NCBI RefSeq assembly: GCF_013283195.1
Contig: NZ_JABEKT010000001.1
Span: 3,049,473-3,113,472, forward strand
DNA from: Ensifer adhaerens
GTDB taxonomy: Bacteria; Pseudomonadota; Alphaproteobacteria; Rhizobiales; Rhizobiaceae
Length of the DNA stretch: 64,000 nucleotides
Reading direction: 5' to 3'
Shown here: one piece after another, positions 6,105 through 8,208 of the stretch
How positions within the stretch are numbered: position 1 is the first letter of the stretch
Layout of the letters: each line of letters starts with the position of its first letter
The notes under the pieces: model-generated
Seen by the model: the letters and a program-made list of their open reading frames with translations, nothing else
What the model was told of the DNA's origin: nothing
Database searches by the model: none
Position numbers and translations under genes: made by a program

Positions 6105-6413
6105 CTACAGCGTCTGCAGCTTGCCGAGGTTCTTGGCCACCAGATAGTAAAAGGTCACGCGCGACTTGGAGCGGTCCGCAGACATCGCCTTCGCCGTGGC
6201 CGAGATGGCTGCGTCCGCGTCCGCACCCGCGACGCCGAGCTTCTTCTCGCACCATTTTTCCCTGACGCGATCGAGCTCCTTGGGGTCGGTGGCCGATACG
6301 AGCGAGGAATCCTTGTTGCGAAGCGCAATGCCGAGATGGCGCACGATCTTGTTCACAACGGCTTCATCGGCGCCGCTGTCATACTTCTGCACATCTGCGA
6401 GATAGTCGGTCAT
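6105..6413 (-). CDS. DUF2853 family protein, 102 aa
   Basis: Small soluble helical protein with the DUF2853 layout: MTDYLADVQKY at the start, a basic REKWCEKKLG segment in the middle and SRVTFYYLVAKNLGK at the end. ATG 6413 has GGAGG 5 bases upstream, so the longer upstream reading (another 32 codons) is rejected. Homologues are widespread in alphaproteobacteria and lack a known function. It stands alone between thyA and ssrA. Confidence 0.88.
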   Translation of the reverse strand: MTDYLADVQKYDSGADEAVVNKIVRHLGIALRNKDSSLVSATDPKELDRVREKWCEKKLGVAGADADAAISATAKAMSADRSKSRVTFYYLVAKNLGKLQTL

Positions 6414-6590
6414 GATGCCTCCACGTTGGGATTGCTCGAAAAACCGCAGCCGTACCCCGCATGCCCCAGCGGCCCGCCTGCAGCAGCCGGAGTTTTTCAT
6501 GGCTGCCAATCATGTCAAGCGTTTTGGAAAAGCAGCGATTTATCCGCTTGCTCCCCTTTTCTTGGGCGCTGGAAAGACCTATATGACAGA

Positions 6591-6918
6591 TGCCGTCTTC
6601 GGGCGGCTATGGCAATAAACGGGCGGTGAAATAAACCCATTGGACCCGGGGGCGGTACCCGGCGCCTCCACCAAAAACCGGTCGACACGTCGATGACCGG
6701 CTTTTGATGGGGGCGAAATAGGATCGACAAGGGCGTAAAGATCGACTTTTTGCTCGGCATTGTACCACCGTTATCGGGCTAAACTTATAGTTGCAAACGA
6801 CAACTATGCTGAAGCACGTCTCGCTGCCTAACGGCGGTGCGACACTTCAAATCAAGTCCTTCCGGGTAGCACCGTAAGGCGGGGTCCGAAGGCACCTGGC
6901 AACAGAAGCCTTCACCTT
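6591..6918 (+). ncRNA. ssrA: Two-piece (circularly permuted) tmRNA
   Basis: Rescues stalled ribosomes and tags the nascent protein for proteolysis. The order is permuted as in other alphaproteobacteria. The tRNA-like 3' half comes first and ends with CCA at 6671-6673. An excised linker at 6674-6708 contains a CCGGTC/GACCGG hairpin. The 5' half starts GGGGGCG at 6709-6715 and pairs 7 bp with CGCCUCC at 6663-6669. The resume codon is GCA at 6793 and the tag frame 6793-6831 reads ANDNYAEARLAA-stop, the known rhizobial tag. The 5' end is placed just before a UUCG-type hairpin, downstream of a CTATAT -10-like box at 6579-6584. The 3' end follows the GAAGGC/GCCTTC hairpin at 6888-6913. Both ends are approximate. 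Confidence 0.95.
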
Positions 6919-7027
6919 CTCCCCCGCTTCGAAATGGTCTATAGATGCTTGGATAATTGACTCGTCATATTCTGACGGGCAATGGAAAGCCGACAGTAGA
7001 ATTGAGTTCGAGAAAGACGGGAATCCC

Positions 7028-7543
7028 ATGGGCCAGGACCACATTCGCTACGACATTCTGGCACAGGATGCGCTTCGCGGCGTCATCCGCAAGGTGCTGA
7101 CCGAGGTTGCCGCCACCGGCCACCTGCCCGGCGAACACCATTTCTTCATCACCTTCCTGACCGGAGCGCCGGGTGTTCGCATCTCGCAGCACCTGAAGTC
7201 CAAGTATCCCGAGCAGATGACCATCGTCGTCCAGCACCAGTTCTGGGAACTCAAGGTCTCCGATATCGGCTTCGAGATCGGCCTTTCCTTCTCCGATACA
7301 CCGGAGCGGCTCGTCATTCCGTTCAATGCCATTCGCGGCTTCTACGACCCCTCGGTCAACTTCGAACTCGAGTTCGACGTGGCCGTGGCCGAAGAGGAAG
7401 AACTCGAATCGGCGGAGATCACCGCCTACCCCGTGCCTGAAACCGACGGCGAAGTGCCGCCCAAGGACGCGGAGAAATCCGGCGAAGCCAAGAATGGCGG
7501 CGGCTCGGTCGTTTCGCTCGATTCCTTCCGCAAGAAGAACTGA
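7028..7543 (+). CDS. sspB: SspB (alpha type), ClpXP adaptor for ssrA-tagged proteins
   Basis: A 171-aa adaptor that binds the ssrA tag and tethers the substrate to ClpX. The N-terminal globular domain (about 1-120) carries the alpha-SspB motifs HHFFITFLTG and MTIVVQHQFWEL. An acidic flexible linker (about 121-160) leads to the C-terminal VVSLDSFRKKN tail, which corresponds to the ClpX-docking (XB) peptide. It lies 110 bases downstream of the tmRNA gene that encodes the tag it recognises. A DUF4169 gene follows after 20 bases on the same strand. Confidence 0.96.
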   Translation: MGQDHIRYDILAQDALRGVIRKVLTEVAATGHLPGEHHFFITFLTGAPGVRISQHLKSKYPEQMTIVVQHQFWELKVSDIGFEIGLSFSDTPERLVIPFNAIRGFYDPSVNFELEFDVAVAEEEELESAEITAYPVPETDGEVPPKDAEKSGEAKNGGGSVVSLDSFRKKN

Positions 7544-7563
7544 GGCAGCTGAAAGGGCGCGGC

Positions 7564-7773
7564 ATGAGTGGTGACGTCGTCAATCTACGCCAGTTCCGCA
7601 AGCGCAATGCCCGCGCCGAAAAAGAGAAGCAGGCCGAACAGAACCGTATCTCGTTCGGCCGCACCAAGGCCGAGAAATCGCTGACCGAAGCCTTGAACGC
7701 GAAAGCGGCAAAAGCCCTCGACCAGGGGCGCCGCCAGCCCGCAGCCGATCGACCCGATGAGGCCGAGGACTGA
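7564..7773 (+). CDS. DUF4169 family protein, 69 aa
   Basis: Small, highly charged, probably helical protein of the DUF4169 family, with no known function. It starts 20 bases after the sspB stop and is presumably co-transcribed. Its residues 5-15, VVNLRQFRKRN, resemble the last 11 residues of SspB, VVSLDSFRKKN (7 of 11 identical), the segment by which SspB docks on ClpX. The rest (FGRTKAEKSL, then an Ala-rich helix and an acidic end) has no catalytic signature. Docking to ClpX is an inference from this similarity, not a known property. Confidence 0.85.
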   Translation: MSGDVVNLRQFRKRNARAEKEKQAEQNRISFGRTKAEKSLTEALNAKAAKALDQGRRQPAADRPDEAED

Positions 7774-7971: not shown

Positions 7972-8208
7972 ATGATCCGAAAACACTCCGCCACCCTGCA
8001 CGGGCACCGCACCAGTTTTTCGCTCGAGGACCCGTTCTGGCTGGAGCTGAAGACGATCGCGGCGACCCGCGCCATGCCGATCGCCCAGCTGATCGTCGAG
8101 ATTGACGACGCGCGCGGCAGTGACAGCAACCTCTCCTCGGCACTTCGGGTCTACGTTCTCGACTGGATCAAGTCGAACGTGCCGCGCTCAGCGGCCGGCG
8201 ACACGTGA
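7972..8208 (+). CDS. Ribbon-helix-helix domain protein, 78 aa
   Basis: Matches the RHH_4-type ribbon-helix-helix family: a short beta strand (HRTSFSLEDPFW) followed by two helices (LELKTIAATRAMPIAQLIVEID, and SNLSSALRVYVLDWI near the C terminus). Proteins of this fold usually dimerise and can bind DNA. The start at 7972 (MIRKHS) is preferred to a TTG five codons upstream. The last 21 bases overlap the 3' end of the convergent diguanylate cyclase gene. Target unknown; possibly autoregulatory. Confidence 0.8.
   Translation: MIRKHSATLHGHRTSFSLEDPFWLELKTIAATRAMPIAQLIVEIDDARGSDSNLSSALRVYVLDWIKSNVPRSAAGDT

Follow-up and report, generated by a model that had tools for sequence, protein, structure and literature searches.

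A peptide resembling the SspB tail at the N-terminus of DUF4169, a small alphaproteobacterial protein often encoded near sspB

The window analysed here, a 64,000-nucleotide stretch of an Ensifer adhaerens genome, carries ssrA, sspB and a DUF4169 gene consecutively on its plus strand, an arrangement given by an earlier sequence-only reading and borne out by ARAGORN, Rfam and Pfam, with every coordinate exact (Table 1). The SspB protein has a solved relative, 2nys_A (molecule name AGR_C_3712p), at an E-value of 1.8e-86, and its C-terminal tail, as in SspB proteins of this class, is what we take to be the ClpX-docking element. The DUF4169 protein is a clear member of PF13770, scoring 81 bits across residues 3-57 against a curated cut-off of 25; it shows no match to the SspB family (PF04386), and PF13770 is its sole match up to an E-value of 1. 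NCBIfam holds no family for the SspB, DUF4169 or RHH_4 proteins of the window up to an E-value of 1, and no solved relatives of DUF4169 appear up to an E-value of 10. Its closest homologues among the matches listed, 96% and 93% identical, both come from Ensifer genomes. Pfam describes DUF4169 as a family of unknown function.

Table 1. Features of the cluster and its upstream neighbour, with positions counted in the window
Feature	Position	Strand	Evidence
DUF2853 gene, divergent, just upstream of ssrA	6105-6434	minus	
ssrA, permuted (two-piece) alphaproteobacterial tmRNA gene	6579..6922	+	ARAGORN; tag peptide ANDNYAEARLAA
ssrA, Rfam matches	6553-6916; 6611-6831		alpha_tmRNA RF01849 (6553-6916), 309 bits; RF04321 (6611-6831)
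sspB, alphaproteobacterial type, 171 aa	7028..7543	+	PF04386, E 1.3e-47
SspB C-terminal tail VVSLDSFRKKN, presumed ClpX N-domain docking peptide	7508..7540	+	sequence
DUF4169 gene, 69 aa	7564..7773	+	PF13770, E 7.8e-23
SspB-tail-like peptide VVNLRQFRKRN, DUF4169 residues 5-15	7576..7608	+	SspB-tail profile, 21.7 bits
RHH_4 ribbon-helix-helix gene, fourth in the cluster	7972..8208	+	PF13467, E 3.7e-24

The sequence-only reading had aligned the SspB tail with residues 5-15 of the DUF4169 protein and counted seven identities in eleven positions, and the count is exact. For a comparison across the class, 93 SspB ORFs were found and reduced to one per genome, which left 90 complete tails out of 127 SspB genomes, and these were set beside the DUF4169 cores of 54 genomes. 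The cores were chosen by a loose regular expression requiring two adjacent hydrophobic residues, N/S/D, L/F and a further two residues of basic type; that the loose core occurs in 54/54 genomes is therefore built into the expression that found them. In the SspB tails, the nine positions read V/I (90), V/I/L (90), S/A/T (82), L (84), D/E (87), a variable residue, F (85), R (89) and K (77), and the pattern [VI][VI]xLxxFR occurs in 80 of the 90. The DUF4169 cores read I/V/L (54), V/I (53), N (49), L (52), N or R (46), R, K or Q (48), a mixed seventh position (A 18, F 12, Y 7, V 7, others 10), R (49) and K (53), and in 42/54 the core begins three residues past a methionine.

Common to both families is thus the pattern hydrophobic-hydrophobic-x-L-x-x-x-R-K, with N3 as a mark of DUF4169 and D5 and F7 as marks of SspB. 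Position 5 is acidic in 87/90 SspB tails against 0/54 DUF4169 cores, position 3 is N in 49/54 DUF4169 cores against 3/90 tails, and F at position 7, found in 85/90 tails, is present in 12/54 DUF4169 cores, with Y in a further 7/54. The first V/I, present in 90/90 SspB tails, can be replaced by L, T or P in the DUF4169 family, which has a class-wide signature of its own, x-[VI]-N-L-x-x-x-R-K. The window peptide VVNLRQFRK carries the shared pattern together with F7; it differs from the full class consensus of SspB, which combines D/E5 with F7, by its R at position 5. F7 in DUF4169 is found in 59 of 67 listed loci of Rhizobiaceae and relatives against the 12/54 seen class-wide, and the near-identity of the two window peptides is partly a Rhizobiaceae feature. 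The missing D5, the mostly missing F7 and the P, T or L in place of the first V count against an identical binding mode.

The strict form [VI][VI]xLxxxRK occurs in 45/54 DUF4169 genomes of the class. A second set, 20 loci out of the 34 DUF4169 genomes that were new in a 200-genome sample of the phylum, contains it in 13/20; the seven deviants read T-I-N-L, I-T-N-L, L-V-N-L, P-V-N-L (two), P-I-N-L and P-L-N-L, and in the P-L-N-L locus K replaces R as well. The parallel between the motifs, the conservation that the sequence-only reading had asked for and the gene cluster all stood; the differences at D5, F7 and the first V/I speak against the simple view that the two proteins carry the same peptide.

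How far the resemblance exceeds chance was assessed with a nine-column profile built from the 90 SspB tails and a background of 253,326 9-mers, taken from stop-to-stop frames 150 codons long or longer, whether coding or not. The window DUF4169 peptide scores 21.7 bits and the highest-scoring background 9-mer reaches 10.5 bits; omitting the window tail from the profile changes neither. Across the 54 genomes the DUF4169 cores score between -1.7 and 25.7 bits, with 13.2 bits as the median; against a profile built without the window tail, 32/54 exceed the background maximum and 22/54 do not. The lower quartile, 7.3 bits, is equalled by four background 9-mers, and the lowest core, at -1.7 bits, by 211. 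In the reverse test, with a profile of DUF4169 cores, the median SspB tail is equalled by about four per million background 9-mers and the worst by 4% of them.

Scans with a degenerate DNA motif pattern, loose enough to accept M in place of V, F in place of L and S in place of R, gave a similar picture. In the 7.07-Mb window genome it has six matches, against one for the reversed pattern used as a control. The neighbouring sspB and DUF4169 genes account for two of these; a third falls early in a LysR-like ORF (named from our reading of the sequence) and has S for R, two fall inside 35-codon open stretches, both with S for R, and the last is in the interior of an open stretch of 169 codons. Over 58 genomes of the class the pattern has 136 matches (31 SspB, 7 DUF4169 and 98 other) against 96 for the reversed control, an excess of about what the two families supply. 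Strict in-frame matches to [VI][VI]xLxxFRK in the same 58 genomes number 67, comprising 30 in SspB, 7 in DUF4169 and 30 others; among 13 of these 30 others that were read in context, none occupies the end of a recognisable gene, and three are placed close to one end of short open stretches (L250, of 14 codons; L255, at residue 12 of 92; L257, at the end of 19 codons). The resemblance between the SspB tail and the DUF4169 N-terminus is real, non-random and conserved, and it occurs in a conserved cluster.

That cluster is most compact in Rhizobiaceae and their relatives. At least 67 such loci exist; among the matches listed for the window protein, ssrA, sspB and DUF4169 occur together in 67/67, and in 66/67 of these sspB lies upstream with 5-149 bases between its stop and the DUF4169 start, the exception being a Bosea locus (L215) with a gap of 1418 bases. 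In the second set of 20 loci, L288 comes from a 1.5-Mb genome (G211) of the window's own family, in which the three genes are adjacent and the core reads TINLRQFRK; this suggests that DUF4169 is important even after genome reduction. The RHH_4 gene also accompanies sspB and DUF4169 across the class. It is found in 65/67 listed loci, one of the two others (L199) being an incomplete locus, and in 54/54 DUF4169 genomes of the class; when all 104 RHH_4 matches are considered, a same-strand RHH_4 gene lies no more than 6 kb from DUF4169 in 28/54, from sspB in 27/54 and from at least one of the two in 36/54.

Across the class, linkage is looser. DUF4169 is present in 54 and SspB in 127 of 142 sampled genomes (G127, with DUF4169 on two contigs, is counted once), and in the 200-genome sample of the phylum all 43 genomes with DUF4169 belong to the window's class, none being seen outside Alphaproteobacteria. 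Every one of the 54 DUF4169 genomes has SspB, against 73/88 of the others (p 5e-4), a co-occurrence to which we attach little importance, since small genomes make up most of those lacking SspB. Measured between match starts, sspB lies 0.3 to 13 kb from DUF4169 on the same strand in 22/54, upstream in 22/22; the two are far apart on one contig in 5/54 and on different contigs in 27/54, a split that need not mean distance where the assembly is a draft. Loss of the motif where sspB lies elsewhere was named in the sequence-only reading as one refutation of its proposal, and such loss is not seen: the strict core is found in 28/32 genomes in which the two genes are either unlinked or not shown to be linked, against 17/22 with linkage. 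Being as common without shown linkage, the motif is independent of adjacency.

An AlphaFold2 model of DUF4169, computed from a 54-row alignment, predicts two helices at residues 8-31 and 35-54 (mean pLDDT 82.8, pTM 0.42). Residues 1-7, including V-V-N, lie outside the helices, and L-x-x-F-R-K opens the first. The body is basic, its first helix strongly so, with a median net charge of +7 over residues 7-48. A Foldseek search with the model returned one match, at an E-value of 10 and of no use. In two genomes, G009 and G121 (loci L080 and L084), about 7 and about 13 extra residues stand between the peptide, here IVDFGSARK and VVDLASVKR, and the conserved helix, the G121 gene being read with a provisional start codon. 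Such extra residues are what a separable linear motif would allow.

We interpret DUF4169 as a predicted two-helix protein whose N-terminal SspB-tail-like peptide may be a ligand of the ClpX N domain, a reading that we take seriously while placing it somewhat short of probable. The resemblance suggests that SspB and DUF4169 may both bind the same protease. The likeness to the SspB tail (XB, the ClpX-binding peptide) extends from the hydrophobic pair-x-L-x-x-x-R-K to a terminal position, a frequent gene neighbourhood and the same bacterial class. The DUF4169 peptide differs in being N-terminal where that of SspB is C-terminal, and in running, in most cases, into a predicted helix where that of SspB follows a long linker, besides lacking D5, mostly lacking F7 and carrying N3. 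The window genome encodes a ClpX whose zinc-binding N domain has matching counterparts in solved ClpX structures, among them 1ovx and 2ds5/2ds8. According to the portion of text available, the zinc-binding domain of ClpX binds the E. coli SspB peptide wherever it stands in the polypeptide (PMC12373786). Excerpts of a second source describe one hydrophobic region of this domain as the site used both by lambda O and by two adaptors, SspB and RssB (PMC7804408). In Caulobacter, as stated in the accessible part of a third, ClpXP control is essential and requires the ClpX N domain, whose role is essential and species-specific, and CpdR, RcdA and PopA form an adaptor hierarchy that depends on it (PMC5422525). 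These adaptors are alphaproteobacterial and N-domain-dependent, as proposed for DUF4169, which we liken to them by description only. With a ClpX N domain encoded in the genome and precedents from E. coli and Caulobacter, docking of the DUF4169 peptide is plausible.

We envision DUF4169 as a small, basic, presumably two-helix alphaproteobacterial protein with an N-terminal linear peptide of the SspB-tail class. The peptide would dock on the zinc-binding domain at the N-terminus of ClpX and the helical body might contact cargo or nucleic acid, so that DUF4169 could either tether something to ClpX or share or contest the N domain with SspB. As to its role, our guess sets an adaptor or tether slightly ahead of a competitor or an N-terminally docked substrate, with no firm ranking among them. 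A more specific version, in which DUF4169 would be a second dedicated ligand of the ClpX N domain, an N-terminal counterpart of the SspB tail that shares or contests its site and so regulates delivery of tmRNA-tagged proteins, is to our mind possible, on the unlikely side. If the peptide does dock on ClpX, the DUF4169 family would gain a partner, its linkage to sspB would be accounted for and ClpXP control would have one more participant; if DUF4169 is indeed a second N-domain ligand, a previously unnoticed small protein would regulate the delivery of tmRNA-tagged proteins. A reading of the DUF4169 N-terminus as SspB-like, including the string VVNLRQFRK, was not found in the open-licence papers searched. 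The available portions of a review on protein quality control in Caulobacter do not mention DUF4169 (PMC8119881), and the one paper among those searched that names DUF4169 lists it among differentially expressed genes (PMC13207237).

The foremost alternative is that the DUF4169 N-terminus serves another partner, such as RNA, the ribosome or the RHH_4 protein, in which case the peptide would be convergent and the near-identity in Rhizobiaceae a lineage accident. The family-specific x-[VI]-N-L-x-x-x-R-K signature, with N3 fixed and neither D5 nor a fixed F7, is consistent with this, as are the concentration of F7 in the listed loci of Rhizobiaceae and relatives and the RHH_4 gene that lies close by on the same strand in 28/54 genomes. 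So is the strongly basic body: the R-K of the peptide, placed inside a predicted helix of that body, may serve nucleic-acid binding. A purely convergent peptide sits less easily with a median class member that outscores all 253,326 background 9-mers, with a motif excess over the reversed control that SspB and DUF4169 supply between them, and with two genes that often adjoin. We regard this alternative as just as likely as docking on ClpX, and likewise somewhat short of probable.

Under a second alternative, the peptide would be an N-terminal degron for the ClpX N domain, DUF4169 merely a ClpXP substrate and its linkage with sspB a matter of shared regulation. Lambda O offers the precedent, since the text available describes a substrate with an N-terminal recognition sequence that can depend on the ClpX N domain (PMC7804408); this is the arrangement proposed for DUF4169, to which lambda O, a phage replication protein and substrate, is likened by arrangement alone. 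The position of the core, so often three residues past a methionine, would also suit a degron. A plain degron would not, however, be expected to track the tail of an adaptor so closely, and we consider this alternative improbable.

There remains the idea that the 3' end of sspB was duplicated into the next gene, giving both the same peptide. The sequence-only reading had pointed to TTCCGCAAG as common to the two genes, and it is indeed present in both; as an argument it is weak, since codon usage yields the same. In eight window genes TTC accounts for 90/114, CGC for 89/155 and AAG for 90/102 of the respective codons, and the two 33-base stretches that encode the peptides agree at 18 positions, so TTCCGCAAG is expected and is not a sign of DNA duplication. 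Although the genes adjoin and seven of eleven residues are identical, we reject duplication as the origin of the peptide and hold it to be very improbable, given the 18/33 agreement, shared codons that follow usage, motif-bearing DUF4169 genes spread across the class mostly away from sspB, and the fumarase-like genes that separate sspB from DUF4169 in two genomes (G041, with class I; G022, with class II among others; names from our reading of the sequences).

With such genes standing between sspB and DUF4169, the compact Rhizobiaceae cluster may descend, in condensed form, from an older block. The two fumarase-containing loci (L269 and L270) come from two other families. In G041, thyA- and dfrA-like genes, likewise named by reading the sequences, lie near sspB, as they do in the window.
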